From positions 1 to 64,000 of the IMG/VR virus record IMGVR_UViG_3300030098_001779: a DNA stretch of 64,000 nucleotides; one strand, 5' to 3'. Position 1 is the stretch's first letter; each line of letters opens with the position of its first letter. Shown piece after piece: positions 5,432 to 48,867 of this stretch. Under the pieces are notes generated by a model. That model ran no database searches. It was not told where the DNA came from and saw only the letters and a program-made list of their open reading frames with translations. The translations under genes were made by a program, and so were the position numbers. The DNA is from a virus.

Positions 5432-5493
5432 ATACCATATGAGTCGCTAAAACGCTTGTAAGACGATTTAAATGGCTCATATGCAGTATTTTT
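5432..5493 (+). terminator. Hairpin with T run (terminator or attenuator)
   Basis: ATAC-CATATGAG (5432-5443) pairs with CTCATATG-CA-GTAT (5476-5489), a 12-bp stem with a 2-base bulge, followed by five T. The 32-base loop can form a smaller hairpin. The ribosome site GAGGGG of the next gene follows immediately, so partial read-through is likely. Confidence 0.55.
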
Positions 5494-5506
5494 GAGGGGT
5501 ATTCCT

Positions 5507-5707
5507 ATGGAACATAGATATAGATTAGTGGTGGAGAAAACAACAGAATATCATTTTGATATTAGCAGTAATGATGTTGATGATATCCAAACTAAAGAAG
5601 AAATAATACAATTAATTATTAATAAGAAATATAATTTACCTAAGAAAGCATTTTCAGAAAAACTTAGAGTAATATCTTGTGATGATAGTCAAGAACTATC
5701 AATATGA
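5507..5707 (+). CDS. Small unknown protein (66 aa)
   Basis: Start at ATG 5507, preceded by GAGGGG at 9-14 bases; the longer frame starting with TTG at 5492 would overlap the ribosome site. The first strand has alternating hydrophobic residues (YRLVVEKTTEYHFDI), suggesting a small beta domain followed by a helix. No family recognised. Confidence 0.6.
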   Translation: MEHRYRLVVEKTTEYHFDISSNDVDDIQTKEEIIQLIINKKYNLPKKAFSEKLRVISCDDSQELSI

Positions 5708-5717
5708 AAGAGGACGT

Positions 5718-6038
5718 ATGAAAACAGAATTTAAATACTATGGTGTGCCAAAAGCGATCATGGATAAATTTGAGGGCAATCTTTTCGTTGCTAGTGATTT
5801 TATCAAAGTAGCAAAAGAATGTAACATGGCTTGGACTGAAAAACAGTATCATGCTATCAAAAAGAATATTAATCATACTGTAAATAATATTAAGAAAATT
5901 AAAGTATGGTCGGATATAAGAGATTTAGTTTACATATTCCAAGAGGGATATAATTACAGATCTACTGAAAAACATGGTGTGTTTGATTACTATCCATGCA
6001 GTAGAGATTTAAAATTCAACATGAAGAAAGGTAGATGA
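5718..6038 (+). CDS. Small basic protein (106 aa)
   Basis: Start at ATG 5718, just after AAAGAGGA. Basic and aromatic; residues 30-70 form a possible helix-turn-helix-like set of helices (VASDFIKVAKECNMAW then a Lys-rich helix), so nucleic-acid binding is conceivable but unproven. Next gene follows after 4 bases. Confidence 0.6.
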   Translation: MKTEFKYYGVPKAIMDKFEGNLFVASDFIKVAKECNMAWTEKQYHAIKKNINHTVNNIKKIKVWSDIRDLVYIFQEGYNYRSTEKHGVFDYYPCSRDLKFNMKKGR

Positions 6039-7270: not shown

Positions 7271-7684
7271 ATGGCTTTAACATGGGACTTACGAAATGTA
7301 GACTTACCACAAGAAACTTTATATGTAAAAGAAGATAGTGGAGAAGAACATTTAAATCCAATCACTTGGGCAATCGTTTGGTCAACTATATTTATAGGAT
7401 TTAATGAAATAACTGAAAAGAATTTAAATGATTGGCACAGACGAATGAAACAATTAGAGATAAGTGGAATGGGATTGCTTGGAGAGAAAGATAGTGATGT
7501 AAAGCGTATGCCGAATTTAAGAGAACTCAAATTACACATTGGTTTAAAAACTAATGGTTCTTTGATTAAGAAAGGTTCAGCGTGGAATAGAGAATTAGTA
7601 AGACAAGTTAATCTTACTGCTGATACTATAATTAAACAAGAAAGAGAAGAACTAGCAGAAGTGGAGAAATCTGATGAAGATTGA
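7271..7684 (+). CDS. Unknown protein (137 aa)
   Basis: AAGGAG lies 7 bases before the ATG. Largely helical; residues 30-66 include a Trp-rich segment and MKQLEISGMGLL, and the last 35 residues are a charged helix ending in an acidic tail. First gene of a three-gene operon, overlapping the next by 11 bases. I do not recognise the family. Confidence 0.65.
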   Translation: MALTWDLRNVDLPQETLYVKEDSGEEHLNPITWAIVWSTIFIGFNEITEKNLNDWHRRMKQLEISGMGLLGEKDSDVKRMPNLRELKLHIGLKTNGSLIKKGSAWNRELVRQVNLTADTIIKQEREELAEVEKSDED

Positions 7685-9320: not shown

Positions 9321-9329
9321 AGTATGATA

Positions 9330-9806
9330 ATGGCAAATAAGCTAAAGATCAGAAAAGCTGATGATTGGCACTATAATCTAGGATTTGAGGTAAATTCTAT
9401 GAATACTGTACAGAAATCAGACAATAAGTACATAAAAGTAAGCGATTTGACTAATGGTACGATATTTAGAGGTAGAACAATTCCTAGTAGGATTGTATGC
9501 TTTTATAATATAAAACCACTAGAAATATCGTGGAAATATGATACTGCTAAAAAGCAAGAAGAATGTAGTGGGAGAAGTGATTATTGTTATCTAGTTAGAG
9601 ATGATTATTACTGTCCTAGTGGGTTCTATCTATGCTTACCTCATAATAATATAGTGGATTGGAGAGTATCAGGATTGGATCATTACTTTCTTTCCCCACA
9701 GGAATTTGAGGAAGATCACAAGATGACAATGCAAGAATATGGTGTTATTCAAAAAGAAGAACACATGAATTCTTACAATGCAGTTAAATCAAAACTAGGG
9801 TATTGA
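9330..9806 (+). CDS. Unknown protein with cysteines (158 aa)
   Basis: Start at ATG 9330, 8 bases after GGAG; the ATG at 9324 is too near the ribosome site. Mixed alpha/beta with Tyr-rich middle (residues 86-104 include four Cys and several Tyr), so metal binding is possible. Single-gene unit behind a long leader. No family recognised. Confidence 0.6.
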   Translation: MANKLKIRKADDWHYNLGFEVNSMNTVQKSDNKYIKVSDLTNGTIFRGRTIPSRIVCFYNIKPLEISWKYDTAKKQEECSGRSDYCYLVRDDYYCPSGFYLCLPHNNIVDWRVSGLDHYFLSPQEFEEDHKMTMQEYGVIQKEEHMNSYNAVKSKLGY

Positions 9807-9862: not shown

Positions 9863-9997
9863 GTGAGAACACTAGAAGAAATAAATAAAGGTTGTACTAA
9901 CTGTACAATACCTGAAATAATGTTATGTTCTAAATGCAGAGCAGAGCATAAAAGAACCTTAGCAAAGCTATATAGCCAAGCTAAAATATATAATTAA
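9863..9997 (+). CDS. Tiny zinc-knuckle protein (44 aa)
   Basis: A GTG-start frame 6 bases after AAGGA and right behind a class I promoter. Two CxxC pairs (Cys-Thr-Asn-Cys at 11-14, Cys-Ser-Lys-Cys at 22-25) are followed by a basic helix, a layout typical of small zinc-ribbon DNA- or RNA-binding proteins. Last rightward gene before the leftward block; a strong hairpin follows. Confidence 0.6.
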   Translation: MRTLEEINKGCTNCTIPEIMLCSKCRAEHKRTLAKLYSQAKIYN

Positions 9998-10002
9998 TCC
10001 TG

Positions 10003-10045
10003 AATAGAGGGTTAGGTTTTATGGTTTTTTCCCTAACTCTCTATT
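10003..10045. terminator. Bidirectional terminator hairpin
   Basis: AATAGAGGGTTAGG (10003-10016) pairs with CCTAACTCTCTATT (10032-10045), with one mismatch. The loop holds T runs, and AT-rich DNA lies on both sides. It separates the rightward left arm from the leftward block. Confidence 0.75.
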
Positions 10046-10086: not shown

Positions 10087-10103
10087 GATATATCAATAAC
10101 TCC
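10087..10103 (-). promoter_or_regulatory. Operator copy 1
   Basis: Plus-strand GATATATCAATAACTCC, one of eleven copies of the leftward-block element. Ends 14 bases upstream of a leftward -35. Confidence 0.7.
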
Positions 10104-10157
10104 TATTAAATATATTGCTATATAAAAAATTTTAGGGAAGTAAGGAGGGGTATATAT

Positions 10158-10245
10158 GGAAGGGAAGGAGAGGAAGAAGGGGTTAGGATACAGGAAGGAA
10201 GGGAGAGGAAAGGCGAGGAAAGGGAAAGGAAGGAAGGGGAGAAAG
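10158..10245. repeat. Polypurine tract
   Basis: Only five pyrimidines in 88 positions on the plus strand, built from irregular GGAA/GGAGA units. It lies downstream of the 10275 gene. A lone half-operator CATAACTCCC follows at 10249-10258. No ORF on either strand is convincing. Confidence 0.7.
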
Positions 10246-10264
10246 CCGCATAACTCCCACCCCT

Positions 10265-10290
10265 AGAGGACTGCTTAAAAACAGTCCCCT
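10265..10290 (-). terminator. Hairpin at the gene end
   Basis: AGAGGACTG (10265-10273) pairs with CAGTCCCCT (10282-10290), one mismatch. It overlaps the stop of the leftward gene, so it may act as a terminator or 3'-end stabiliser. Confidence 0.55.
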
Positions 10291-10766
10291 TTGGTGTCAT
10301 CAAAGATATTATTTTCTCCACTTATGTATCTCTGGTAATTCTTGTATGCTTGTTGTAATCCCCATTCATACTCCATACCCATTCCAAACGATCTTTTAAA
10401 CCAGATGTGGTCAAAGTCGTATACATCATCAACAACAATTTCACCAACTGTTGAAAACCATTGGGCAAGGTGTGGAGAAATGGCAAAATGTTGCATTACA
10501 TCACCTTGTTTCCACTCAATCAGCTCCTGTTTATATTCATCTTCTAATTGGTCTAGAGTCAAGACAGGATCAAAATTGTTCCTGAAGTCTTCCATGTCTT
10601 CGGAGGTGATAGCGTTTTGAGTAGCAATCCAAAGTTTTTCATGGGGTTCTTGTGTGTCATCTTGATACCAAATATCCATAACTTGATTTACAAGGTGATA
10701 AACATTATTATCAATCCATTTTTTAAAGTCTTGATCTTGTGCTAAATCTGTTTTTTGTTGTGTCAT
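10275..10766 (-). CDS. Unknown acidic protein (163 aa)
   Basis: Leftward gene. Start set at ATG 10766 because AAAGG lies 8 bases before it; an in-frame ATG six codons earlier lacks a site. Acidic, Trp-rich and helical, with a central segment WKQGDVMQHFAIS and a Gly-Met-Gly-Met region near residue 130. The largest protein of the leftward block. Controlled by two tandem promoters with an operator between them. No family recognised. Confidence 0.65.
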   Translation of the reverse strand: MTQQKTDLAQDQDFKKWIDNNVYHLVNQVMDIWYQDDTQEPHEKLWIATQNAITSEDMEDFRNNFDPVLTLDQLEDEYKQELIEWKQGDVMQHFAISPHLAQWFSTVGEIVVDDVYDFDHIWFKRSFGMGMEYEWGLQQAYKNYQRYISGENNIFDDTKGDCF

Positions 10767-10807
10767 TTTAATGCCTTTCTGCATTGGTTTATTTATTAAC
10801 TAATCTC

Positions 10808-10837
10808 ATAATATCACATTTAACAGTTCTGTGTCAA
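10808..10837 (-). promoter_or_regulatory. Class I promoter (proximal)
   Basis: Minus strand TTGACA (10832-10837), 18-bp spacer, TATTAT (10808-10813) with extended -10 TGTGA. A second TTGACA overlaps just upstream. Confidence 0.75.
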
Positions 10838-10851
10838 TATGTCAATATAGC

Positions 10852-10868
10852 GATATATCTATAACTCC
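10852..10868 (-). promoter_or_regulatory. Operator copy 2
   Basis: Plus-strand GATATATCTATAACTCC, sitting between the two promoters of the 10275 gene. Confidence 0.75.
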
Positions 10869-10878
10869 ACCTACTATC

Positions 10879-10908
10879 ATTATATCATATATGGAAGGGG
10901 TGTGTCAA
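10879..10908 (-). promoter_or_regulatory. Class I promoter (distal)
   Basis: Minus strand TTGACA (10903-10908), 18-bp spacer, TATAAT (10879-10884). Its transcript would run through the operator. Confidence 0.7.
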
Positions 10909-10954
10909 GAGGGAAGCAAGGGAAAAGGAGAGTAAAGGAAGGAAGGACAAGGGG
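10907..10954. repeat. Second polypurine tract
   Basis: Three pyrimidines in 48 positions, similar in texture to the tract at 10158. Flanked by a half-operator CCATAACTCCCC (10957-10968). Confidence 0.6.
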
Positions 10955-10962
10955 TGCCATAA

Positions 10963-10977
10963 CTCCCCAGAGGGGAG
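10963..10977 (-). terminator. Short GC hairpin at the gene end
   Basis: CTCCCC-AGA-GGGGAG, a perfect 6-bp stem directly after the stop of the leftward gene 10980-11249, overlapping the half-operator. Confidence 0.5.
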
Positions 10978-10979
10978 GA

Positions 10980-11249
10980 CTATGCCTCCCACTCTGCCTG
11001 TTCCTTTCTTGCATATTCAAGGTCATCCTCTAGAAGTTCTTCTAGTTGCTCCCATGAAATCCATCCCATGTAAACCATTTCTTGGATAAGAGCTGGTTTT
11101 AATCCATTTACTGGAACTAGATCTTCGTCATATTCTCCGATATGAGAAGTAATATCTACGAAGGGGTGATTTCCTTCAAATGAGTCAGCAAACTCAATTA
11201 GGTCGTTTATACTTATATTCAATTGTAGGTTTAAAAATTCCTTATTCAT
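10980..11249 (-). CDS. Small acidic protein (89 aa)
   Basis: Leftward single-gene cassette. Acidic and helical; two amphipathic helices (residues 12-22, 55-80) and a Glu-rich tail. A GGGAAT stretch lies upstream of the ATG. Function unknown; the cassette layout (operator, promoter, gene, hairpin) is the same as in its neighbours. Confidence 0.65.
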   Translation of the reverse strand: MNKEFLNLQLNISINDLIEFADSFEGNHPFVDITSHIGEYDEDLVPVNGLKPALIQEMVYMGWISWEQLEELLEDDLEYARKEQAEWEA

Positions 11250-11291
11250 TTTTAATTCCCTTTTTGTTTTTTTATTTATTTCTTATATATA

Positions 11292-11321
11292 ATAGTAGCA
11301 TATTTTTCCTAAATGTGTCAA
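11292..11321 (-). promoter_or_regulatory. Class I promoter
   Basis: Minus strand TTGACA (11316-11321), 18-bp spacer, TACTAT (11292-11297) with extended -10 TATGC. Confidence 0.75.
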
Positions 11322-11326
11322 CAACT

Positions 11327-11344
11327 GATATATCGTATAACTCC
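11327..11344 (-). promoter_or_regulatory. Operator copy 3
   Basis: Plus-strand GATATATCGTATAACTCC, five bases upstream of the -35 box. Confidence 0.8.
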
Positions 11345-11358
11345 AATAAAATGCGGGG

Positions 11359-11388
11359 GGACAGGGGAAAAATTGAAAAACCCTGTCC
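11359..11388 (-). terminator. Hairpin with U-rich loop
   Basis: GGACAGGG (11359-11366) pairs with CCCTGTCC (11381-11388). On the minus strand the loop is TTTTTCAATTTTTC. It sits between the 11408 stop and the next operator. Confidence 0.65.
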
Positions 11389-11407
11389 ATGTGTCCCCTA
11401 GTTTAGT

Positions 11408-11638
11408 TTATATAGCCAATTTTCTTTGCTCTTTTTCTTCTTCCCAGATCACGCTTTCTACTGCATCTCTGAACCTTTGCTCATCAAATCGGGGATTATC
11501 TTCTCTGAAAACTTCACACATTGATTGGTATAAACTATCAGCATCAATGTAATGATATCCTTTTTCTCTAGCATCTCCCATAAATCTAATGCTTTTCTTC
11601 CACACTCCAACGAATTTTATGTAATCTTTCTTAGTCAT
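11408..11638 (-). CDS. Small unknown protein (76 aa)
   Basis: Start at ATG 11638 with AAAGGAG upstream; the longer open frame runs through the promoter and operator and is not used. Helical and charged (MTKKDYIKFVGVWKK at the start; a Glu/Arg-rich second half). Could be a small nucleic-acid or polymerase-binding protein, but no motif proves it. Confidence 0.65.
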   Translation of the reverse strand: MTKKDYIKFVGVWKKSIRFMGDAREKGYHYIDADSLYQSMCEVFREDNPRFDEQRFRDAVESVIWEEEKEQRKLAI

Positions 11639-11667
11639 TTTTCTCCTTTGTTTTTCCTTATATACAT

Positions 11668-11697
11668 ATAATAACATATTTCTTATAGGTAATGCAA
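11668..11697 (-). promoter_or_regulatory. Class I promoter, weak -35
   Basis: Minus strand TTGCAT (11692-11697), 18-bp spacer, TATTAT (11668-11673) with extended -10 TATGT. Confidence 0.65.
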
Positions 11698-11712
11698 TAG
11701 TACCGCTACCAT

Positions 11713-11730
11713 GATATATCACATAACTCC
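11713..11730 (-). promoter_or_regulatory. Operator copy 4
   Basis: Plus-strand GATATATCACATAACTCC, 15 bases from the -35 of the 11408 gene. Confidence 0.8.
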
Positions 11731-11744
11731 CAAAAAATTTAGTT

Positions 11745-12150
11745 CAACAGGCGTGGCAAGGGTGTCAGATGAATGAGAACTCACTTTCAAACTTAGCCTT
11801 ACGATTTGAGGTGTAATCGTGATACATCAGGCTCAACACTGGCTTTCCTTATACCATTCCTAGGATATGGTGGAAGCATCAGGTGATACATCTGGCTCAA
11901 CGTCATTGACCACAGGGATCTGCAAGATACTCTATCTCTATTCTTTTTCTGAACTCGCATTAGAAGTCCATCATGATTAAGTACAACTAATAATTTTCGT
12001 AACCCTTAAAGTTTCTGTTTAGGTTGCGATCCTAAGAGCCTACTAACCACGCCTACTATATTGTTAAACACAAGATTGATGATCGGTTGTTATAGATCAT
12101 TTCTGTCCACATTCCCTACTTCGTTGTATTTCTACTTCCTCAACCTTGTA
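11745..12150 (-). ncRNA. Predicted structured leftward RNA, about 400 nt
   Basis: A 640-base stretch without a plausible ORF lies in the place where a cassette gene is expected, downstream of an operator and leftward promoter. GGCGTGG (11750-11756) and CCACGCC (12047-12053) can close a domain of about 300 nt. Inside are two 19-base direct repeats, GTGATACATC-A/T-GGCTCAAC (11819-11837, 11883-11901). Hairpins include ACGATT/AATCGT (11801-11820) and TTCC..ACCAT/ATGGT.GGAA (about 11845-11876). ATGATC/GATCAT (about 12079-12099) lies outside the closing stem, near the 5' end. The family is not recognised. Confidence 0.5.
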
Positions 12151-12155
12151 ATATA

Positions 12156-12185
12156 AGTATACCATATTTAATAAACCCATGTCAA
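12156..12185 (-). promoter_or_regulatory. Class I promoter for the leftward RNA
   Basis: Minus strand TTGACA (12180-12185), 18-bp spacer, TATACT (12156-12161) with extended -10 TATGG. Divergent from the promoter at 12215. Confidence 0.75.
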
Positions 12186-12189
12186 TACT

Positions 12190-12205
12190 GATATATCATA
12201 ACTCC
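12190..12205 (-). promoter_or_regulatory. Operator copy 5, between divergent promoters
   Basis: Plus-strand GATATATCATAACTCC, lacking the central AT. It lies 4 bases from the leftward -35 and 9 bases from the rightward -35. Confidence 0.8.
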
Positions 12206-12214
12206 CCACCCCTA

Positions 12215-12244
12215 TTGACTCAACTATTTTAAAAATGCTATAAT
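12215..12244 (+). promoter_or_regulatory. Class I promoter (rightward)
   Basis: TTGACT 12215-12220, 18-bp spacer, TATAAT 12239-12244 with extended -10 AATGC. Drives the only rightward gene in the block. Confidence 0.8.
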
Positions 12245-12282
12245 ATTAGAGTAAATAAAAAACAAGTAGATAAGGACTACTA

Positions 12283-12531
12283 ATGAATTCAATAGAACCA
12301 AATGATATCAAGAAGGGTGATATCGGATACTTAAAAAATGGGTGGAAGTTTGAAATGATGGATAACAAGAAGGGTAATATCAGAATGGCAATGGTACATG
12401 GCGACTTCCCTGAAATGGGTAGCATCTATACCCATGATATAGCCTTCATTGAAAAAGATGGCGATGATGTTCCTGTTAATGCTTCACGCTATGAGAAGCA
12501 AACAACTATGATTAGAAATTTAGGTTTCTAG
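12283..12531 (+). CDS. Small beta-rich protein (82 aa)
   Basis: The only rightward gene of the leftward block, with AAGGA before the ATG. The sequence is rich in strands and Gly turns (KKGDIGYLKNGWKFEMMDN, then a Gly-Ser-Ile-Tyr-Thr-His-Asp-Ile segment), which fits a small SH3-like barrel. Small proteins of this look are common in aquatic phages, but I cannot assign a function. It shares an operator region with the divergent RNA. Confidence 0.65.
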   Translation: MNSIEPNDIKKGDIGYLKNGWKFEMMDNKKGNIRMAMVHGDFPEMGSIYTHDIAFIEKDGDDVPVNASRYEKQTTMIRNLGF

Positions 12532-12569
12532 TCTATGGAATATATATTACTCATAGGAATTTTTCTATG

Positions 12570-12592
12570 GTGGCTCTCTTTATAAGAGCCAC
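12570..12592. terminator. Hairpin between converging genes
   Basis: GTGGCTCT (12570-12577) pairs with AGAGCCAC (12585-12592), and outer bases CTATG/TATGG extend it with wobbles. No clear T run, so termination is inferred from position. Confidence 0.5.
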
Positions 12593-12595
12593 TAT

Positions 12596-12615
12596 GGAGT
12601 TATGTGATATATCAG
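12596..12615 (+). promoter_or_regulatory. Operator copy 6, inverted
   Basis: GGAGTTATGTGATATATCAG on the plus strand, opposite to all other copies. No TTGACA promoter follows; it lies between two converging 3' ends. Confidence 0.65.
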
Positions 12616-12621
12616 CACACC

Positions 12622-12843
12622 CTAGTTAATGGGTATATAGAAATCCATATTTCCAGAGTTCTCCTCACCTCCCACAATACTGATGAAATCCCTTTGCGTG
12701 GGATCCTCAACATCAAAAGGGTGTGGCTCTACCCAGTAGCAATAACCACAGATAACCACTTCATCACCCTGTACATCAGCCACCAATCCCCAAGATGATA
12801 TTTGATTGATTATTAAGTTGCAGAAGTTACATTCTTTATCCAT
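12622..12843 (-). CDS. Small zinc-knuckle protein (73 aa)
   Basis: Leftward gene with AAGGAG upstream. Cys-Asn-Phe-Cys at residues 5-8 and Cys-Gly-Tyr-Cys near 32-35 form a four-cysteine zinc site with a 23-residue spacing. The acidic tail is rich in Asp and Pro. Such small zinc proteins often bind host transcription or replication proteins. Family unknown. Confidence 0.65.
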   Translation of the reverse strand: MDKECNFCNLIINQISSWGLVADVQGDEVVICGYCYWVEPHPFDVEDPTQRDFISIVGGEENSGNMDFYIPIN

Positions 12844-12897
12844 TTTTTTAAATCTCCTTAAATCGTTTTGCCTGTATTTTTTACAGAGCTCAATTTA

Positions 12898-12925
12898 ATA
12901 ATACCAAAGTTAAAATAAATGTAAA
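12898..12925 (-). promoter_or_regulatory. Probable promoter, weak -35
   Basis: Minus strand TTTACA (12920-12925), 16-bp spacer, TATTAT (12898-12903). Placed by its position below an operator. Confidence 0.5.
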
Positions 12926-12940
12926 GAGTGGCGGCACCCT

Positions 12941-12958
12941 GATATATCATATAACTCC
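12941..12958 (-). promoter_or_regulatory. Operator copy 7
   Basis: Plus-strand GATATATCATATAACTCC, the exact consensus. Confidence 0.85.
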
Positions 12959-12991
12959 CCAATATATATCATTTCAACTGGGGATTAGATT

Positions 12992-13240
12992 TTACCAATC
13001 TATAGTATTAATACCGAATTCAGCATATCCTTTTTCAATATTTTCATCAGGATCATCTTCATGATCTAAACTTATTGGCAGTACAACTGCAGAGTCTGGT
13101 ATTGGTTGTCCATAATCATCAGTAACATCAGACGCATTTAAACAATCTAAAAGATTTTTTTCATCTATATCTTCTTTAGACCATAACGCTAAATTCTGTA
13201 ATTCATGTTCAACTTGTGCATTTTTTATTTCATTTAACAT
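12992..13240 (-). CDS. Small acidic protein (82 aa)
   Basis: Leftward cassette gene with a strong ribosome site (AAAGGAGG) before the ATG. Starts with an amphipathic helix, then an Asp-rich segment (DVTDDYGQPIPDSAVVLPIS) and a C-terminal acidic loop. Very low pI. Function unknown. Confidence 0.65.
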   Translation of the reverse strand: MLNEIKNAQVEHELQNLALWSKEDIDEKNLLDCLNASDVTDDYGQPIPDSAVVLPISLDHEDDPDENIEKGYAEFGINTIDW

Positions 13241-13264
13241 TTTTTTATCACCTCCTTTAATATA

Positions 13265-13292
13265 AGTATATCATAGGTAGGTAATATGTCAA
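13265..13292 (-). promoter_or_regulatory. Promoter, 16-bp spacer
   Basis: Minus strand TTGACA (13287-13292), 16-bp spacer, TATACT (13265-13270) with extended -10 TATGA. Confidence 0.65.
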
Positions 13293-13297
13293 AGACT

Positions 13298-13315
13298 GAT
13301 ATATCATATAACTCC
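13298..13315 (-). promoter_or_regulatory. Operator copy 8
   Basis: Plus-strand GATATATCATATAACTCC, exact consensus, five bases from the -35. Confidence 0.85.
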
Positions 13316-13330
13316 CCGAAAAAATCGGGG
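13314..13330 (-). terminator. Hairpin fused to the operator
   Basis: CCCCGA (13314-13319) pairs with TCGGGG (13325-13330) around an A5 loop. Its left arm shares bases with the operator, and it lies just after the 13339 stop in transcript order. Confidence 0.5.
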
Positions 13331-13338
13331 GGTAGTGG

Positions 13339-13560
13339 CTAGTCCATGTATTGATTAGTTACATGCCCTAAAGGACTATCAGTAGTTAATCCTTGAACAC
13401 CTTCATCAAATGCGATGAAAACTTTTTTCCAAAGTTGCCCACTATCAGAGTAGAAATATTCATCTCCCTCTGCTTTAATGCCATTTTCTATTATGGCTTG
13501 TGCTAAATCTCTGTATCCTTCATTGATTGCCATTTCTTTATTTATTTCTGCGTAAGACAT
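13339..13560 (-). CDS. Small unknown protein (73 aa)
   Basis: Leftward cassette gene; AGGAG lies 7 bases before the ATG. Helix at 3-28 (INKEMAINEGYRDLAQAI), then a short beta segment with Tyr-Phe-Tyr-Ser-Asp and an amphipathic C-terminus. No recognised family. Confidence 0.65.
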   Translation of the reverse strand: MSYAEINKEMAINEGYRDLAQAIIENGIKAEGDEYFYSDSGQLWKKVFIAFDEGVQGLTTDSPLGHVTNQYMD

Positions 13561-13600
13561 TTTTTTCTCCTATTGGTTGTTTATTTAACTTACATTTATA

Positions 13601-13628
13601 AGTATACCAGAATATAAAAATTATACAA
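13601..13628 (-). promoter_or_regulatory. Promoter, 16-bp spacer
   Basis: Minus strand TTGTAT (13623-13628), 16-bp spacer, TATACT (13601-13606) with extended -10 CTGG. Confidence 0.5.
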
Positions 13629-13643
13629 TAGCAATTTTATACC

Positions 13644-13661
13644 GATATATCATATAACTCC
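13644..13661 (-). promoter_or_regulatory. Operator copy 9
   Basis: Plus-strand GATATATCATATAACTCC, exact consensus, 15 bases from the -35. Confidence 0.85.
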
Positions 13662-13676
13662 AAAAAAATGGGGTGG

Positions 13677-13742
13677 TGGCTGAAATAATCCCGATCCTAT
13701 GTTTCTGATGATCGGTTATAGTGTCTTCCACTTTTTCAGCCA
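13677..13742 (-). terminator. Nested hairpin between cassettes
   Basis: TGGCTGAAA (13677-13685) pairs with TTTCAGCCA (13734-13742); inside, CCGATC (13691-13696) pairs with GATCGG (13710-13715). It follows the three-gene operon ending at 13756. A 40-codon leftward frame overlaps it but reads through the operator, so a 3'-end structure is preferred. Confidence 0.5.
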
Positions 13743-13755
13743 TTACCCTTTTATA

Positions 13756-13884
13756 TTATTGTTGAGGTATATTTTCTTCTTCTAAAAGTTTTCTCCACTG
13801 CTCTCTGATTTTTGCTTGTTCAGGTGTCAAGATTTTTTCATCTGTTCCCTCGTTTAGCAAATCTTCAAAACTTTTCTCTTTCAT
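13756..13884 (-). CDS. Tiny helical protein (42 aa)
   Basis: Third gene of a leftward trio, starting in an ATGA overlap with the preceding gene. Charged, helical (MKEKSFEDLLNEG start; a Glu/Arg-rich helix after residue 20 containing TPEQAKIREQWRKLL). Coupled start and codon use like its neighbours support coding. Function unknown. Confidence 0.55.
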   Translation of the reverse strand: MKEKSFEDLLNEGTDEKILTPEQAKIREQWRKLLEEENIPQQ

Positions 13885-14012
13885 TTTTTATTCCTTTTTA
13901 ACTCGTTTTTATATTTTTGTATTGCCTCTTTTTTAGAGTAATAGTAATAAATTCGTCTTCCTATATCTCCGAAAATTACTAACGCTCCTTCTCTGTTTTT
14001 TTCTATAATCAT
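13881..14012 (-). CDS. Tiny basic protein (43 aa)
   Basis: Second gene of the trio, with AAAGGAAA before the ATG and an ATGA overlap with the following gene. A strand-turn-strand start (ALVIFGDIGRRIYYYYS) leads to a lysine-rich helix. Basic charge contrasts with most leftward proteins. Function unknown. Confidence 0.55.
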   Translation of the reverse strand: MIIEKNREGALVIFGDIGRRIYYYYSKKEAIQKYKNELKRNKK

Positions 14013-14022
14013 TTTTTCCTTT

Positions 14023-14181
14023 CTATCTTCTTGGGTTCTGTCGTTCCAATGTCTGTTTTACTATTAATCTTTTAATTTGGTTTTTAGTTAATCCTTTTGG
14101 CTTTGCTTTTGAACCTTTCACAACTGTGATACATTCTCCATTCTTGCCACTTGGTTTTACTTCTAATTTTATTCTAGCCAT
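14023..14181 (-). CDS. Tiny basic protein (52 aa)
   Basis: First gene of the trio, directly behind an operator-linked promoter, with AAAGGAAA before the ATG. Lys/Arg-rich throughout, with a helix (LTKNQIKRLIVKQTLER). Size and charge suggest nucleic-acid contact. No family recognised. Confidence 0.55.
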   Translation of the reverse strand: MARIKLEVKPSGKNGECITVVKGSKAKPKGLTKNQIKRLIVKQTLERQNPRR

Positions 14182-14213
14182 TTTTTTCCTTTGTTTATTT
14201 ATTTGTTAATATA

Positions 14214-14243
14214 ATAATAGCATATTTTCTTTAGGTGTGTCAA
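14214..14243 (-). promoter_or_regulatory. Class I promoter
   Basis: Minus strand TTGACA (14238-14243), 18-bp spacer, TATTAT (14214-14219) with extended -10 TATGC. Confidence 0.8.
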
Positions 14244-14259
14244 CAAGGTATGTCCACAT

Positions 14260-14277
14260 GATATATCATATAACTCC
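14260..14277 (-). promoter_or_regulatory. Operator copy 10
   Basis: Plus-strand GATATATCATATAACTCC, exact consensus, 16 bases from the -35. The rightmost copy found. Confidence 0.85.
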
Positions 14278-14340: not shown

Positions 14341-14583
14341 TTAAATAGCTTGTGCTAGATTTAATACTACCACTTCGGTTCTCTTTGACATTTCAAAGTG
14401 GTGGTCGCAACATATTAAACTATCACTTATTTCCTTTGGGTTTCGTTTAAAGATATCTGTGATTGAGAATTTCTTCTTATCAGGACAATCAAACCATTGT
14501 CGCCAATATCCTTTGTCTTTGTCTATTTCATAGTGAACATTCTCATTCTGCTCACCAAACTTAAATGTACCTTTAACCTTCAT
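14341..14583 (-). CDS. Small unknown protein (80 aa)
   Basis: Leftward gene with AAAGGA upstream. A beta-like first half (KVKGTFKFGEQNENVHYEID), a Trp-rich turn and a Cys-Cys-Asp-His-His segment near residue 59 that could hold a metal. It has a class I promoter but no operator, unlike genes farther left. Function unknown. Confidence 0.65.
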   Translation of the reverse strand: MKVKGTFKFGEQNENVHYEIDKDKGYWRQWFDCPDKKKFSITDIFKRNPKEISDSLICCDHHFEMSKRTEVVVLNLAQAI

Positions 14584-16246: not shown

Positions 16247-19200
16247 ATGCCAAATATTGAAGCCTTGACAGAAAAACTAATGAAAGATCCTGACTTCAAA
16301 CCAAAAGCAGGCAAGACTAAACTTGAAACTGCTCAAGAAGAAGCAACTCAGAGAATGAATCAGCATAGAAAAAATGCTGCTGCATTAGCTTTAGCTGTAG
16401 AAAATAAAACTGCTATTGAAGCTCTTAGTGACCATGCTGAAAAACAAAAAGAATTAAAAGAAGTAGATGAGATGGTATTTGGTGTTCCTAGTGAGAGTGA
16501 TAGAGAAGCTATGGAACGTGAATTAGATTTAATAGAATTAAATGTTGATACAGATATAAAATTAGCTCCTCCACCAAAAAATACAAGTAGTCAAGTAAAA
16601 GAAGAATTAAAAACTATAATTGATTTACATTTGGCTACAAAAGAAGATACGGAAAACTTTGAGTTTGAAATTGCAAAACCTGCAAAATTACAAGATTTAG
16701 ATATAACAAAGGCATTTACAAATTTAGCTAAAGAATTAGGTTTAGGTGATGAAATCACAAAAGATAAATTAAAGCCTATAATAAGAGAAACTGCTATGAT
16801 AGTCATGAACTTAAAATATCAGTTTAACAGACCTAGACCTTTTCAATTAATGGATTTTCATGAAGTAGAATTTGAACCTGCAGATTTTAAATCTTCTAAA
16901 ACCCCTGCTTATCCTTCAGGACATTCTTTTCAAGGAACTTTAATAGGTCAAATATTATCTGATCTTTTCCCTATTTACGAAGAACAATTTAAAAAACTTG
17001 GAAAGTCTATTGGGGATAATCGTGTAATATTTGGAGTACATTACCCTTCTGATAATTATGCTGGAGTAGAACTAGCAAAACAAGTGTATCCATTTGTAAA
17101 CTTTGATAAGTTAGGCTTTCAAGCTATTCCACAAGAATCAGAACCTTTAGAAAAAGAGGACAATCCTAGAATACCTAGAAAAAAAGGACAGCCTGCAAAA
17201 TCAGATAAACACTCTGATTTATATACAGATGAAGATCCAAAAGACACAATTCAAGGATTAGGGTTTAAAGATGTAAAAACAGCAGAGGCATCTGTGAATA
17301 AAATAAAAAAATCTGGTAGAACTCATGCTCATAAGATACAAGCTGCTGTTGCTATGGAACAAAGAGCAAAAGCTGCTGGTAAAACTACAGCCGCAGGCGT
17401 ATATAGAAAATATATAAATGAGATGAAAGAAAAAACACAGGAGAAAGAGATTGAAAAACATTCTGAAGAACATCACACTGTGGAACATACAGCTGAAGAA
17501 AAACCATTTAACTATGATGACGCAATAGAATCCATAGGAACTCAAATAGAACAGATTAAAAATAAAATAAAAACTGGTGATTATGGCATAGAAAAAGCTG
17601 ACATGCCTCTAGAAAAAGCTACTCCTTTAGAAGTTCTTACAACTGGAGCTGCACTTGCTGCTGGTGGAGTCGCATTGTGGGATTTATACCAAACTTTTAA
17701 AAATAATAAAAGATTAACTAGAGATCAAAGAATTGAATTAGACGAAGCATTAGAGGCAAACGAAGAAGAAATAAAAAATATTCAAGTAAACTTTAATGAA
17801 GATCAAGAATTACCAGATTTAGAAGACACAGACAATGTTGCTGAAATAGTTGAAGCTGCTAAAGATCCAGAAAAAGCAGAAGATGTTGTAAAAAAAGTTA
17901 GGAAGAAAAGATGGGATGCAGGAAAAACTGCAGAAGAAAAACAGAAAATAAAAGAAGAAAGAGATAGGAGAAGAGCAGAGAGAGAAGAGAGAGGGGAGAC
18001 ATCACCTTTAGCTCCTGTTGGAGAACTTACTCCTGAACTAGAAATAGACTCTGTGCTTAGACAAGCAGAAGATTCTGGATTAATAGATCACATACATGAA
18101 CAAATAGAAGGGCATGGTAAAGATAACCCTTTCCATACTAAAGAAGATACTGAGAAAGCTATAAGAGCTAAATATAAAACACCTGAAAAGATGAAAGAAT
18201 ATTTAGGTAAACAACACGGTAAATTTGAAACATTTAAAGCTAAAGCTGAACAACAAAAAGAAAAAGATGATCAAAAAGCTGCTGAAAATCAACAGAAGAA
18301 TGAAGCTAATAGTGCTAAATGGGACATAGATGAAAATGTAAGTTCTGAAGATGCTGCTAAATCTATAAGAGAAATGTTACATCACCAAGAAAAATATGGT
18401 GGTAAGGGTCAAATGAGTTCAGCTCAAAGAGCTCACATTAAAGAACAAATAGATGAAGCTAAAGCTAGACTATCTCCAGATGATACAGAAAAATTAGCTA
18501 GAGAGATTCAAGATCATAATGATGAAAAAAAGAAACCTAAGAGTGAACAAGACACATCAAAAACTTTCGGTAGTTCAGATTATGAACAAAATGTTTTAGG
18601 TCAGACTCCTAAAAAAGAAGATGAGCCTGAAGAAGATAAAGACTACGAAGGTAAAGATATACCACCAGAAAGAAGAGTATATGGTGATCCTCCTGAAGAC
18701 ACTAATGTAAAAACTTATCAAGGACCAGAAGGTGGCTCTTTTTACGATAGAGATGAAGCTGAATCTAAAGAAACAGGTGATGATAGTGCCACAGGTGCAA
18801 AAGGTGAAGATGGAAAAGCAGTTCCACCACCAGTAAGAGAAGGTGATAAAGTTTCTCAAGATGCTCCAGTAGGTCAAAAAGCTGAACAATGGGGTAAATC
18901 TAAAAAAGGATTTATAGCAAGATTTCTAGAAGCTGAAAAAGCAGGATATGAAGCAGCAAAGAAAGAAGATAAAAAAGGTGACTTAAAAGATATATTTAGG
19001 CGTGATATTAAAGATGCAGTTACAGGAAAAAGTTTAGTAGACCAACTAACTTACTCTATAGCTAGATCAAGAGGATATGATAAAAAATCTGCAGAAACTG
19101 CAAAACTGTCAAATCAGGTCAGAGCATTAGTGAGAGCTACACAAATAGGTAAAGTAATTGCTAGAAAGACTCCGGGTTTTGAAGCCGAAGCAAGAGTCGC

Positions 19201-19345
19201 TGCTGGAGCAGAGGCTAGGCAGAATAAAGAAGCCTTAAATAGAGAGATGAAAATAGCTAGACAACGAAGAGATGGACAGCTAGATACTAAACTAGATAAG
19301 GGTGAAATAAAAAAACTACAGGATTTTCTAAGAAAGCGAGTATAA
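16247..19345 (+). CDS. Giant virion-type protein with PAP2 phosphatase domain (1032 aa)
   Basis: Residues 120-290 carry the full PAP2/acid phosphatase signature: Lys190-x6-Arg197-Pro198, Pro223-Ser-Gly-His226 and Arg259-x5-His265-x3-Asp269. These residues bind phosphate, with His265 as nucleophile in the family. Around 322-400 is a domain with DLYTDEDPKDT and many Lys, a type I have seen in phage and large-virus proteins but cannot name firmly. A hydrophobic segment lies at about 460-482. From 500 on the protein is charged, low-complexity and coiled-coil, ending in a basic tail. Size and position at the head of the virion block suggest a structural or ejected protein. AAGGA lies upstream of the ATG. 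Confidence 0.75.
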   Translation: MPNIEALTEKLMKDPDFKPKAGKTKLETAQEEATQRMNQHRKNAAALALAVENKTAIEALSDHAEKQKELKEVDEMVFGVPSESDREAMERELDLIELNVDTDIKLAPPPKNTSSQVKEELKTIIDLHLATKEDTENFEFEIAKPAKLQDLDITKAFTNLAKELGLGDEITKDKLKPIIRETAMIVMNLKYQFNRPRPFQLMDFHEVEFEPADFKSSKTPAYPSGHSFQGTLIGQILSDLFPIYEEQFKKLGKSIGDNRVIFGVHYPSDNYAGVELAKQVYPFVNFDKLGFQAIPQESEPLEKEDNPRIPRKKGQPAKSDKHSDLYTDEDPKDTIQGLGFKDVKTAEASVNKIKKSGRTHAHKIQAAVAMEQRAKAAGKTTAAGVYRKYINEMKEKTQEKEIEKHSEEHHTVEHTAEEKPFNYDDAIESIGTQIEQIKNKIKTGDYGIEKADMPLEKATPLEVLTTGAALAAGGVALWDLYQTFKNNKRLTRDQRIELDEALEANEEEIKNIQVNFNEDQELPDLEDTDNVAEIVEAAKDPEKAEDVVKKVRKKRWDAGKTAEEKQKIKEERDRRRAEREERGETSPLAPVGELTPELEIDSVLRQAEDSGLIDHIHEQIEGHGKDNPFHTKEDTEKAIRAKYKTPEKMKEYLGKQHGKFETFKAKAEQQKEKDDQKAAENQQKNEANSAKWDIDENVSSEDAAKSIREMLHHQEKYGGKGQMSSAQRAHIKEQIDEAKARLSPDDTEKLAREIQDHNDEKKKPKSEQDTSKTFGSSDYEQNVLGQTPKKEDEPEEDKDYEGKDIPPERRVYGDPPEDTNVKTYQGPEGGSFYDRDEAESKETGDDSATGAKGEDGKAVPPPVREGDKVSQDAPVGQKAEQWGKSKKGFIARFLEAEKAGYEAAKKEDKKGDLKDIFRRDIKDAVTGKSLVDQLTYSIARSRGYDKKSAETAKLSNQVRALVRATQIGKVIARKTPGFEAEARVAAGAEARQNKEALNREMKIARQRRDGQLDTKLDKGEIKKLQDFLRKRV

Positions 19346-22593: not shown

Positions 22594-25500
22594 ATGCCAA
22601 AAAGTAGAGGGATACAAGGTGGACTAACCAGAGGTCGACTATTTGATACTAATATAAAAGCAACTCAGATAGATGAAGATATCTTTTCTGACCAAGAGCT
22701 ATTGTCTTCTATTGCAGGAGATGATTTAGTATTAGTTCTTGACGTATCTGAAACACCAGATAAAGTTAAATATATTACTAAAAGTAATTTCGTTACTGGT
22801 ATTACTGGAGTAACAGTCACTGATAACGAATCTACTAATGAAGATAATTTACTTACCTTTGTTGCAGATGCAGCTACATCAACTGGATCTCATGAACTTG
22901 AAATGGATGGAGATCTTACTTATAATCCATCTACAGGTAACCTTTCCGCTACACAATTAACAGGTGCTTTACAAACTGCATCACATCCTAATGTGACTAC
23001 TCTTGCTGGTGTAACAGCTATGGGTTCAGTATCAAATGCTCTAACTCTTACTTATAGTGATGCAACTTTATTTCACGATGCAAATAATGCAGACACCTCT
23101 TTTACAATGGGTACAAGTGCTACTGAAGCACTAAAAATAGAAGTATTAAATGGTGGATCTAATAAAACTGCAGAGTCTATTGCCTTTACTTCTACAACAG
23201 CATCAGGAACTGGAGATCACGGTAAGTTTACATTTAGTGTTGATGAAGCAACTGCAATGTTTACAATTGATGATGGTGGAGTAAGTATAGCTGAAAGTGG
23301 TGCTTATGAAATAAATGGCACAGCAATATTATCAGACTCGTCAGGCACTTTAACATTACAAAATGTAGATGCCTTAGATGCTACAACAGAATCAACTATA
23401 GAAGCAGCTCTAGATACATTATCTAATCTAGCTTCTGCTACAGCCTTGACTACAATAGGTTCAGCAGGAGCTACAACAAATTTTGCAGCTGGTGATGTTA
23501 CCTTCTTTAATCCTGTTAACGATGGTAATCCTACACTTAGTTTAGGATCAGATAGTAATGAAAGATTAAAAATAACATCAACTTATGACTCTGGAGCTCA
23601 GACATTAGATAAAGTTACATTTGAGACTGCTGCCGCTTCAGGTAGTTCAGACAAAGGTAAATATGTATTTAACGTGGATGGTACAGATATATTCGATATT
23701 GATGATTCAGGTATAAATTTAACTTCTGGTAAATCAGTTAGAGTAGCTGGAGCAGCTGTTGTAGGTGGCGTTAATGAGTTTGCAGCTGGAGCGGTAGCAG
23801 ACGGAGATTCATTTATATTTTCAGATGCTAATGATAGCAACGCAACTAAAAAAGATGCTATAGCAGATCTTGCAACATTATTCGCAGGAACAGGATTAAC
23901 AGCATCTAGCTCTGTCATATCAGTTGATGCAGCACAATCAGGTATTACATCATTAGGAACATTAACAGGTTTAACTTTAGATGGTGATAAAAACGTAACA
24001 CCGGGTGATGGTGCTATGATACATCTTGATACATCTACAATTACAGATAATAATACGTCAGGTTCAGGAACTGCGGCATTATATACACATGTAAGATTTG
24101 AGGCACCTACTTTAGCTGCTTCTAATTCATCTGTAACAACAACTACAGCAAGCACTGTATACATTAGTGGTGCTCCATCAGCAGGAACAAATCAAACTGT
24201 ATCAAATGGATTAGCATTATTCGTGGATGCAGGAAATGTAAGATTTGATGGCGACATTATCATGGGGACTAATACTGCTGGTAATTTATTAATTGCTGAT
24301 GGTAGTAACTTTAGTTCAACAGCAGTTGGTGATTTATCCGAAATATCTACAGTTGCATCTGACGATGTGTTACTTGCAGTAGATACATCAGGTGGTGGAC
24401 TAAAGAGAATTACAAGGTCAACACTTGTAGCTGGTCTTGCTACAGGTAGTGAAATATCAAATGTTGTTGAAGATACTTCACCACAACTTGGTGGCGACTT
24501 AGATGTAAATGGTAATGGTCTAGTATCTACTTCAAATGGTAATATAGCACTTACACCAAACGGTTCAGGTGTTGTTAGAATAGATGGCTCTAATGGTATT
24601 GACATGGAGTCAGGAGCTATATCAATTAAAAACTCTGGGGCACAGTCTTATGTAAGATTTTATTGTGAAGTAAGTAATGCACATTATGCCCAATTACAAG
24701 CACCAGCACATGCAGATTTTGGTGGAAATATAACTTTAACTTTACCTGCAACTACAGATACTCTTGCAGGTTTAGCAGCTACACAAACATTTACAAATAA
24801 ATCTTTTGGTAGTGATGTAGATATATTTGAAGATGCAAACAACGCTGATGTAACATTAAGAATGGGTACAAGTGCTACAGAATCTTTAGCTATTTCAGTA
24901 TTGAATGGTGGTTCTAATAAGACAGCCGAGTCTGTTACATTTACAACTGCTACAGCATCGGGTACAAGTGATCATGGTAAATTTACATTTAATGTGGACG
25001 GCTCAGACATTTTTGATGTTGATGATTCGGGTATTAACTTAGCATCAGGTAAAACATTTAGAATAAATGGAACTGCTATTTCTTCAGCAGTTATCACTGC
25101 ATTAAATAATGCAACTGAAAATGAATTAGTAACTATTGGTAGTACAACTACTGAACTAGATGCAGAAACAGCTTTAACATTTGACGGAACTGATTTAAAA
25201 TTACTTAAAGATGCAAATAATGCGGATGTATCATTCGTATTAGGTACAGCTGATGCAGAATCATTGACAATACAGGTATTAAATGGTGGTTCCAACAAGA
25301 CTGCAGAAGAGATACACTTTAGTACAGCGACTGCATCGGGTACAGCCAATCATGGAAAAATGGTGTTTGATATTGATGGAACTGATCAATTTGAAATTAA
25401 TGATAGTGGTGTTACAGTTACAGGCGATTTAACAATTACTGGTGATGATTTATTTATGAACACAAACACAGCAGGACACATTCTTGTTGGTGATGATACA

Positions 25501-39235: not shown

Positions 39236-40417
39236 ATGACCATGGAAAGGGGTGCCGGTAGACTCGGCAGAATTAGAAGAGCGGCTTCAGTTGCGGCTGC
39301 AAGTCCGGGTAGAACTGCGTTAAGAGCAGGAGCTATTGGTGGAAACATAGCTACATTCGGAGCTTCAGGATTTCTTGGTAAAACCTTAATGGGTATTAAG
39401 AAAGATATTTCTAGTCCTAATGGTGGTTTCTTTAAAACTCTTAGTAAAAATAAAGCGTTTTTAGGTATTAACTTTGGAGTAGGTTCACTACTAAAGCAAT
39501 CACAGGTATTTACTGGTATTATAGGATCAATATTACAGATAATTGGTGCAATGGTGGATGCATTTATAGCTCCATTTATAGTCCCATTGTTTGTACCTTT
39601 AGCTAAAAAAGCAGGATCATTCATTCCTAAAATTCAAAAATATTCTCAACAACTAGCAGAAAAATGGGTTCCTAGAATTCAAGAAGCCTTTCAAAATTTA
39701 ACTGGTGGAAAAGGACCATTTTTAGAAAGATTAAAAGAATTTATATTTGGTTTCTTAGATGGAGTACCTGAATTCTTAAATGATGTATTCGCTGGAATGG
39801 GTTTTGACGAATTTGGAGCATCAGTTGAAAGATATTCTCAGATGGTTGCAAATGTATTTAAAGCTCTATATAATATTATTTTTGATTTGATAATACCGGG
39901 CTTTGATAAAATAGGTGTTTTAATTGGAAATGTAATAGGTGGATTTAATGATTTAGGAAATGCTTTTGAATATGTTATTGCTTTAACTAGAGAAGCATTT
40001 GGAAAATTTCAATTAGGTATAGAAAATTTATTAGATATAGTAAAATTAGGTAGAATGAGTGATACTGAAGAAGCTATGTTACAATCAGATATAGAAAGAT
40101 TCGGAGCTACTAGAGACGAAATAGGAACTGCAATGTCCTTATCTAGACAAATTAGAAACATGGAATTTACTGATGAAGCAAATGCAGCAATGAAGAATAG
40201 ATATGGTATAGATGCTAGAACTGTACATTCAGGTGAAACTAGAGGATTACTGCAAGAAGGATTTACTCAAAGTGAAATACAAAATATGATTCAGGCTTTA
40301 TTCATGGATACGATGAAAACTGGTGGTAATGTTAACTTTAAATTCGGACAAGAAGGTGGTATGTTTAATAACTTTGGATCATTAATGTCAGCAGGATTTA
40401 GTAGTAACGGAAAATAA
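39236..40417 (+). CDS. Tape-measure-type protein (393 aa)
   Basis: Gly/Ala-rich N-terminus, then hydrophobic helices (IIGSILQIIGAMVDAFIAPF at about 101-120 and more after 125) and long amphipathic helices, as in tape-measure proteins that set tail length and enter the membrane. It directly follows the frameshifted chaperones. At 393 residues it is short; the usual 0.15 nm per residue would give a tail near 60 nm (inference). Confidence 0.7.
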   Translation: MTMERGAGRLGRIRRAASVAAASPGRTALRAGAIGGNIATFGASGFLGKTLMGIKKDISSPNGGFFKTLSKNKAFLGINFGVGSLLKQSQVFTGIIGSILQIIGAMVDAFIAPFIVPLFVPLAKKAGSFIPKIQKYSQQLAEKWVPRIQEAFQNLTGGKGPFLERLKEFIFGFLDGVPEFLNDVFAGMGFDEFGASVERYSQMVANVFKALYNIIFDLIIPGFDKIGVLIGNVIGGFNDLGNAFEYVIALTREAFGKFQLGIENLLDIVKLGRMSDTEEAMLQSDIERFGATRDEIGTAMSLSRQIRNMEFTDEANAAMKNRYGIDARTVHSGETRGLLQEGFTQSEIQNMIQALFMDTMKTGGNVNFKFGQEGGMFNNFGSLMSAGFSSNGK

Positions 40418-40429
40418 ATAAGGAGAATT

Positions 40430-40975: not shown

Positions 40976-40983
40976 GAGAAAAG

Positions 40984-44961: not shown

Positions 44962-44962
44962 T

Positions 44963-45160: not shown

Positions 45161-45422
45161 ATTTAATAAAGAAAAAGCTCTAAAAAGTTTAGATGTATTA
45201 TTTGATATATTTAAAGATATATCTACAAATGCTGACGAAGTTTTTAAAAAGAGATGTCCTTATAAAAATGCAAAGTCTAGATGTACTGCTAAATTTGAAT
45301 GTAAAAATCAATATAATATTAAGAAATTTGGAGAAAGCCCTGTTTGTACAGGATCAGATTTACTTGATTACAGACCAGCGTGGATACCAGATAAAAGATT
45401 AAATTCTAATAATGAGACTTGA
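45150..45422 (+). CDS. Cysteine-rich protein, likely metal site (90 aa)
   Basis: Four cysteines in Cys-Pro-Tyr..Cys-Thr-Ala..Cys and a later Cys suggest an iron-sulfur or zinc site. The rest is helical with a Pro/Trp-rich end (LDYRPAWIPDKRLN). ATG 45150 gives a short overlap; the ATG at 45126 is an alternative with no better ribosome site. Overlaps the next gene. Function unknown. Confidence 0.55.
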   Translation: MTSKFNKEKALKSLDVLFDIFKDISTNADEVFKKRCPYKNAKSRCTAKFECKNQYNIKKFGESPVCTGSDLLDYRPAWIPDKRLNSNNET

Positions 45423-45792
45423 TACTAAAGTAATTAAATATAGGAATCAAAACCCTTTTATGTCAACACGTCAGATTGCAAGAGAGGTTGGAGCTTCTGT
45501 AAGTTGGGTGCATAACATATTAAAAACAGCTAACTTACCTACAAACCCACCTAAGAAGAAAAAGATTACTTATATCTGCCCAGAATGTAAACAACTTGTT
45601 AATGCTAGACGTAAATTCTGTAGTGAAAAATGTAAATACAACTATAGAAATCCTTTACTTACTTGTCATTATTGCCACGCAAAGTTCAGAAGATCTAGGT
45701 CAAGAGTAATAGCAGCCATAAAAAGAGGCTGTGATCACATATATTGTGACCAAAAATGTACAAATAGAGCAAAAAGAGACAAAATTACTTGA
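45412..45792 (+). CDS. HTH plus double zinc-ribbon protein (126 aa)
   Basis: Residues 17-39 (MSTRQIAREVGASVSWVHNI) form a clear helix-turn-helix of the recombinase or sigma-region-4 type. After it lie two zinc sites: Cys56-x2-Cys59...Cys70-x3-Cys74, and Cys85-x2-Cys88...Cys112-x3-Cys116. The C-terminus is basic. It very likely binds DNA and is a candidate regulator, possibly of the leftward operator or the next promoter. It ends at a class I promoter. Confidence 0.75.
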   Translation: MRLDTKVIKYRNQNPFMSTRQIAREVGASVSWVHNILKTANLPTNPPKKKKITYICPECKQLVNARRKFCSEKCKYNYRNPLLTCHYCHAKFRRSRSRVIAAIKRGCDHIYCDQKCTNRAKRDKIT

Positions 45793-45818
45793 CACGCCTA
45801 CCCCAAATATGATATAAT
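45789..45818 (+). promoter_or_regulatory. Class I promoter
   Basis: TTGACA 45789-45794, 18-bp spacer, TATAAT 45813-45818 with extended -10 TATGA. It starts the structured leader and hsp20. Confidence 0.85.
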
Positions 45819-45824
45819 TAATAA

Positions 45825-46006: not shown

Positions 46007-46035
46007 TCTCTATAAATTAATTATTAGGAGGAGAT

Positions 46036-46446: not shown

Positions 46447-46449
46447 CAA

Positions 46450-47603: not shown

Positions 47604-47604
47604 A

Positions 47605-48858: not shown

Positions 48859-48867
48859 GGAGGCGAT

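Follow-up and report, generated by a model that had tools for sequence, protein, structure and literature searches.

The 64,000-nt stretch of phage DNA analyzed here (the window) belongs to the 82,411-bp IMG/VR record IMGVR_UViG_3300030098_001779 (G000) and carries ten copies of an 18-bp element, GGAGTTAT-(NN)-GATATATC (the tag), between positions 10,087 and 14,277. The tag keeps a strict helical register to predicted promoters, is conserved in related phages and heads small accessory cassettes that are shuffled among them. Small early genes of obscure function are kept together in phage genomes as blocks, and it is usually obscure how a newly acquired gene comes under control. From the sequence we think it likely that the tag is the site of a probably phage-encoded, sequence-specific activator that would contact host sigma-70 RNA polymerase (RNAP) from upstream.

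The tag consists of two fixed 8-bp blocks, GGAGTTAT and GATATATC, usually 2 nt apart (range 0–2 nt). An earlier note on this DNA had counted ten copies in the leftward orientation, one of them inverted; all ten coordinates are correct as positions of the GATATATC half, and nine copies run leftward with the one at 12596 inverted. A 20-mer scan allowing up to three mismatches returned seven matches against 0.04 expected, a count reached by no shuffled sequence. All copies lie within one 4.2-kb accessory block. The left arm, virion and replication regions had been described as devoid of copies, and a search of the whole record, including the 18.4 kb beyond the window, found none outside the block; the tag does not occur at equal density elsewhere.

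Three related IMG/VR contigs carry the tag: G001 (3300030450_002944; 81 kb, DNA polymerase 85% identical, 12 copies), G002 (3300025132_005424; 5 copies) and G003 (3300006920_000450; 5 copies). Every copy lies inside the same accessory block, and both the motif and its position relative to promoters are conserved. Both 8-bp halves are unaltered in the 32 copies of the four phages; the bases between them vary, and the gap is shortened to 0–1 nt in three copies. This tally used a pattern demanding exact halves. A mismatch-tolerant scan for both blocks found few, scattered near-misses elsewhere and no degenerate promoter-linked versions, so that the tag looks all-or-none, as expected of a single strict DNA-binding protein. 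Four further exact-pattern matches are single copies in other contigs, and scans with flanking and cassette genes for more relatives returned the same contigs only. The source metagenomes of the relatives are presumably marine, to go by their sample numbers.

For each tag copy we called the best sigma-70 core within 90 nt downstream, blind to its distance from the tag. The claim that most copies end 4–16 bases upstream of a -35 is borne out at nine of the ten window sites, where a predicted sigma-70-like promoter follows at 4–16 bp; the inverted copy lacks one. The gap groups leave out three copies with no ordinary promoter (G000 12596, G001 21601 and G001 27024), and one automatic G002 call of 18 was re-read as 16 by eye. 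Across the four phages, the gaps between tag and predicted -35 fall into three groups, 3–7, 14–16 and 25 bp. In G000 and G001 together, the 17 non-redundant cassettes have gaps of 4, 4, 5, 5, 5, 5, 5 and 7; 14, 14, 15, 15, 15, 16, 16 and 16; and 25 bp, with 0 of 17 at 8–13 or 17–24 bp, giving a Rayleigh vector of R = 0.88 for a 10.5-bp period (p = 1.8e-6). The control distance, from tag to start codon, is variable (53–187 nt) and unphased (R = 0.31, p = 0.23). Measured to the -10 box, the tag stands at about 27–30, 37–40 and 47 nt. Orthologous cassettes shift by about one turn between G000 and G001 and stay on the same face, the gap going from 16 to 5 bp in cassette A, from 14 to 5 in J and from 15 to 7 in B. 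Helical phasing of the tag to the promoter is a new result; we found no direct precedent for phage multi-site phased activators in the open-access literature. In spacer length (18 bp) and extended -10, the early promoters of the left arm match those of the block, yet they lack the tag; the leftward block is therefore separately controlled.

The repeated unit comprises the tag, a promoter, one small gene (three in cassette A) or a structured RNA, and a gene-end hairpin. About eight repeats of this unit had been proposed as a library of swappable genes. There are eight full cassettes, seven genic and one noncoding, plus one orphan promoter; swapping is real, as cassettes are reordered, exchanged and inverted between relatives, whereas not every library member is a gene, one being a structured noncoding RNA. 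In the sense of transcription the order is A-B-C-D-(E inverted)-R-F-H-J in G000, D-x-B-A-F-y-K-R-E-J in G001, R-A-z-J in G002 and (E inverted)-R-F-H'-J in G003, where lower-case letters are genes without a G000 counterpart and K is G000 gene 14341–14583, untagged in G000. The G003 gene at the place of H is 32% identical over 47 aa.

Sister phages lose homology at the tag or immediately behind it. At 11730, G000 and G002 are 95–97% identical upstream, against 57% over the first 40 nt downstream; between G000 and G001, the noncoding cassette aligns exactly from tag to tag; and the block aligned between G000 and G003 stops at 11326, one base past the tag at 11327–11344, to restart near the half-site at 10966. 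Such breaks are partly trivial because every swapped cassette starts with the same tag; as alignments, they show the unit of exchange, not its mechanism. The repeats themselves may help recombination.

The 430-bp cassette R encodes no protein and is conserved in four phages. Its consensus fold has 108 pairs, of which 12 are changed on both sides with pairing kept; none of 500 shuffles matches this count of compensatory pairs, and slid versions reach at most two. The structure is provisional because four sequences are few. Rfam gave no match, and when the viral collection was scanned with an exact 19-mer, the cassette turned up in the three relatives only. Its predicted promoter bears a tag, which flags a conserved structured RNA as being under the same control as the tagged genes.

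In the mechanism that we propose, the regulator would sit just upstream of sigma-70 promoters and touch RNAP like a class I activator, and the three distances one helical turn apart on one face would reflect this required contact. Promoter-linked copies lie upstream of the predicted -35 without overlap (gaps 3–25 bp) and on the same face, as class I sites do. The tag would define a regulon of self-contained cassettes (gene-end hairpin, tag, promoter, small gene or structured RNA) that could be reordered, swapped or inverted and stay in the regulon because each starts with the same short tag. Salmonella PhoP offers a parallel: its boxes, like the tag, lie upstream of the -35 in alternative positions one helical turn apart, and a reverse-oriented box activates at 27, 37 and 48 nt from the -10 (PMC3335776). 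PhoP differs in serving a cellular two-component regulon and in reading a TGTTTA-type direct repeat (PMC3335776).

Several observations weigh against activation by such a protein. The register is comparable and not identical to that of PhoP, because PhoP boxes at positions 28–32 gave little expression (PMC3335776). Promoter cores with a tag are not significantly weaker than cores without, so that we dropped weaker cores as proof of activation, and the cassette at 10072 has a perfect consensus core. G000 12596, G001 21601 and G001 27024 are inverted or without an ordinary promoter, the promoters are predictions and not mapped starts, and the regulator is not pinned to any phage protein.

Control could also run in the opposite sense, with a repressor from phage or host that sits ahead of the -35, contacts RNAP from the same face and shuts the block at some stage of infection. 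The earlier note had called the tag an operator, which agrees with a likely protein-binding site tied to promoters and restricted to the block; the helical register fits an activator better than the repressor sense of that word. In cluster A mycobacteriophages, repeated asymmetric sites that lie between genes and point along transcription are known to be bound by a repressor (PMC9283540), and several cores here are near consensus and would need no help. However, the tag does not overlap the core promoter except where promoters stand in tandem (window position 10908; G001 position 24105, downstream of its tag), steric repression does not need helical phasing, and no immunity repressor was recognized among the proteins searched (no Pfam or PHROG match). 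We regard a repressor as rather unlikely and activation as the more likely direction. An architectural element, whether an UP-element-like site for the alpha subunit or a site for a host nucleoid protein of IHF/Fis type, would need no dedicated regulator; the tag is AT-rich, and binding by the alpha C-terminal domain would presumably also give phasing. With sixteen fixed positions including GGAG, the tag is nevertheless much stricter than UP elements are, comparable core promoters in the left arm do without it, and a sister phage (G010, below) has a different element in its place, all of which makes this explanation improbable.

Could the repeats do no more than supply homology or a recombinase target, in the manner of PeSL (promoter early stem-loop) modules, with no regulatory role? 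The homology breaks (G000/G002 at 11730; the noncoding RNA cassette in G000/G001) and the inverted cassette would suit this idea, but swapped cassettes starting with the same site would show such breaks anyway, and both the 10-bp register with the promoter and the orientation would be left unexplained; we consider it quite improbable. Finally, the phage encodes a sigma-70-family factor (46450–46983), of which, or of a phage RNAP, the tag might be the promoter. A separate box without a -35, GTATAATA, fits this factor: it stands ahead of virion genes (15809, 26355, 29922, 34599 and 36837; 71529 in the record) and likely marks the late promoters of the factor. Moreover, the factor is conserved across the phage family including relatives that lack the tag, no single-subunit RNAP was found among the proteins searched, and phasing with sigma-70 promoters would stay unexplained. 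We rejected this identity of the tag as barely credible. Two other candidates were also discarded. A host regulator would be expected to have a host regulon, and 257 Gb of prokaryote genomes hold the exact 18-mer only three times, always as a single copy, although exact matching misses degenerate sites. A translated mini-open reading frame (a GGAG-ATG reading) conflicts with the position of the tag upstream of its own promoter and with loss of the ATG in variants.

The tag resembles PeSL modules and mycobacteriophage operators and coincides fully with neither. PeSL modules of T4-type phages (Arbiol 2010; Comeau 2014; cited through PMC4503421) likewise repeat an intergenic stem-loop and an early promoter between small early genes that are shuffled among close relatives. 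The phage studied here, with its SU10-like capsid and PolA, falls outside the unrelated T4-type family; it adds an 18-bp site in strict helical register to the promoter and a module with a structured RNA. Operators/stoperators of cluster A phages (L5, TipsytheTRex) are, like the tag, many near-identical, asymmetric, short intergenic sites along transcription, but they are scattered genome-wide and sit in gaps that are transcribed, where they halt elongation (PMC9283540), whereas the tag occupies one 4.2-kb block, upstream of promoters and in phase with them. Start-associated sequences (SAS/ESAS) of cluster K mycobacteriophages share short asymmetric repeats on a non-structural gene set, mostly in one orientation and conserved in relatives, and have no exact copy in the host genome (PMC3203893). 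They differ in lying 3–7 bp before start codons, with a proposed translational role (PMC3203893); the distance of the tag from the start codon is unconstrained.

The phage has no close cultured relative: all matches of its DNA polymerase in the phage collection are below 60% identity, the best among the matches listed at ~28%, and terminase and capsid have partial, distant matches only. In G008, G009 and G011 (DNA polymerase 56–62% identical) the tag is absent, and exact 11-mers revealed no comparable repeated element. G010 (3300025097_000996; DNA polymerase 83% identical) has leftward units of like architecture in which tandem TGTGATATTAGA with a 12-bp period and a CT-rich tract replace the tag between gene-end hairpin and promoter. 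This arrangement suggests that the tag may change while the architecture of the unit persists, and amounts to a natural experiment. One tentative possibility is a plug-in regulon, in which a single phage-encoded activator reads the 18-bp tag and any gene or RNA that lands behind it on the right face would join; since sisters keep the architecture with a changed tag, the tag might then be a lineage-specific code deciding which cassettes exchange. Sequence alone thus yields a testable rule of tag, promoter register and cassette boundary, and the regulon that the tag defines is a handle with which to search for the activator.

The earlier note had singled out the helix-turn-helix (HTH) and zinc-ribbon protein at 45412–45792 as a candidate regulator. 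Its HTH is well predicted (predicted local distance difference test score, pLDDT, 89), the second part is zinc-binding with conserved cysteines, and short Lrp- and FapR-like HTH matches include none with E < 0.1. Nothing ties this protein to the tag, and since relatives lacking the tag conserve it too, we rate it as a candidate only. The left-arm protein 7271–7684 was rejected (weak RHH_8 score; profile comparison with solved structures yielded no sensible match), as was that of cassette J, whose structure model is too poor to use (pLDDT 45).

Table 1. Coordinates of tags, cassettes and associated features. Positions refer to the window unless another genome is named; promoters are predicted and given as -35, spacer in brackets, -10; gaps are in bp.
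Feature	Position	Strand	Details
Tag, 18 bp	14260..14277	-	TTGACA 14243 (18) TATTAT 14214; gap 16
Tag	13644..13661	-	weak promoter TTGTAT (16) TATACT; gap 15
Tag	13298..13315	-	TTGACA 13292 (16) TATACT 13265; gap 5
Tag	12941..12958	-	TTTACA 12925 (16) TATTAT 12898; gap 15
Tag, inverted	12596..12613	+	between 3' ends of convergent genes; promoter not found
Tag, spacerless (GGAGTTATGATATATC)	12190..12205	-	TTGACA 12185 (18) TATACT 12156; gap 4; between divergent promoters (plus-strand TTGACT 12215)
Tag	11713..11730	-	weak promoter TTGCAT (18) TATTAT; gap 15
Tag	11327..11344	-	TTGACA 11321 (18) TACTAT 11292; gap 5
Tag, 1-nt spacer	10852..10868	-	TTGACA 10837 (18) TATTAT 10808; gap 14
Tag, 1-nt spacer	10087..10103	-	consensus TTGACA 10072 (18) TATAAT 10043; gap 14; no gene
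Cassette A gene	14023..14181	-	52 aa, isoelectric point 11.2; in G001 and G002 at other positions
Cassette A, further genes	13881-14012, 13756-13884		behind 14023..14181
Cassette B gene	13339..13560	-	73 aa
Cassette C gene	12992..13240	-	82 aa, acidic; homologue not found in relatives
Cassette D gene	12622..12843	-	73 aa with two CxxC pairs; G001 counterpart 79% identical, its tag inverted
Cassette E gene	12283..12531	+	82 aa; orientation opposite in G001
Cassette R, noncoding RNA	11740..12156 (also given as 11740-12172)	-	structured, ~400 nt; four phages
Cassette R counterparts	G001 23060-23515; G002 5455-5892; G003 346-790
Cassette F gene	11408..11638	-	76 aa
Cassette H gene	10980..11249	-	89 aa, acidic; other genes instead in G002 and G003
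Cassette J gene	10275..10766	-	163 aa, acidic; last cassette in 4/4 phages
Second-class element	10257, 10966	-
Second-class element, relatives	G001 21737, 22411; G002 3842, 4571; G003 1598, 2313
Second-class element GGAGTTATGG	10957..10966	-	CT-rich tract next, then promoter 10908
Second-class element GGAGTTATGCG	10247..10257	-	CT-rich tract of ~100 nt next
Hairpin, U-rich loop	14287..14331	-	upstream of tag 14277; -20 kcal/mol
Branched hairpin and T-run	13670..13748	-	upstream of tag 13661; -29.7 kcal/mol
Hairpin, U-rich loop	11357..11400	-	upstream of tag 11344; -19.7 kcal/mol
Further gene-end hairpins	13313-13330 (-), 10268-10287 (-), 10003-10045 (+)		U-run in loop; several in G001
HTH and zinc-ribbon protein	45412..45792	+	candidate regulator; conserved in relatives with and without tag
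Tandem TGTGATATTAGA and CT-rich tract	G010 46400-46440, 47525-47555, 48715-48745		in G010 40001-49053

Two half-copies of the tag had been noticed as well. Both are real (GGAGTTATG at 10257 and 10966) and belong to a second conserved class of element, GGAGTTATGCG(A/G), which lacks the GATATATC half and precedes a polypyrimidine tract as long as 100 nt; all four phages have two such elements each. Hairpins do stand at gene ends as claimed, mostly in a form other than the canonical terminator. Only two score as canonical, below shuffle counts, because most carry the U-run in the loop and not after the stem. CCGATCATCA occurs both in the noncoding RNA (12086, minus strand) and in the hairpin at 13670–13748 behind cassette A; pairing or common origin is possible.

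At the left end of the block, the minus-strand promoter at 10072–10004 would give a predicted transcript that begins at the hairpin, antisense to the rightward genes 9863–9997 and 9324–9806; it is kept in G002 and G003. Outside the block, a protein of 1105 aa is encoded at record positions 64095–67412; it combines a poly(A) polymerase/CCA-enzyme head with RNA-binding and HD domains, and its C-terminal part weakly matches the integrase family. A 1032-aa protein with a PAP2 phosphatase domain is encoded at 16247–19345, on the left margin of the virion region.

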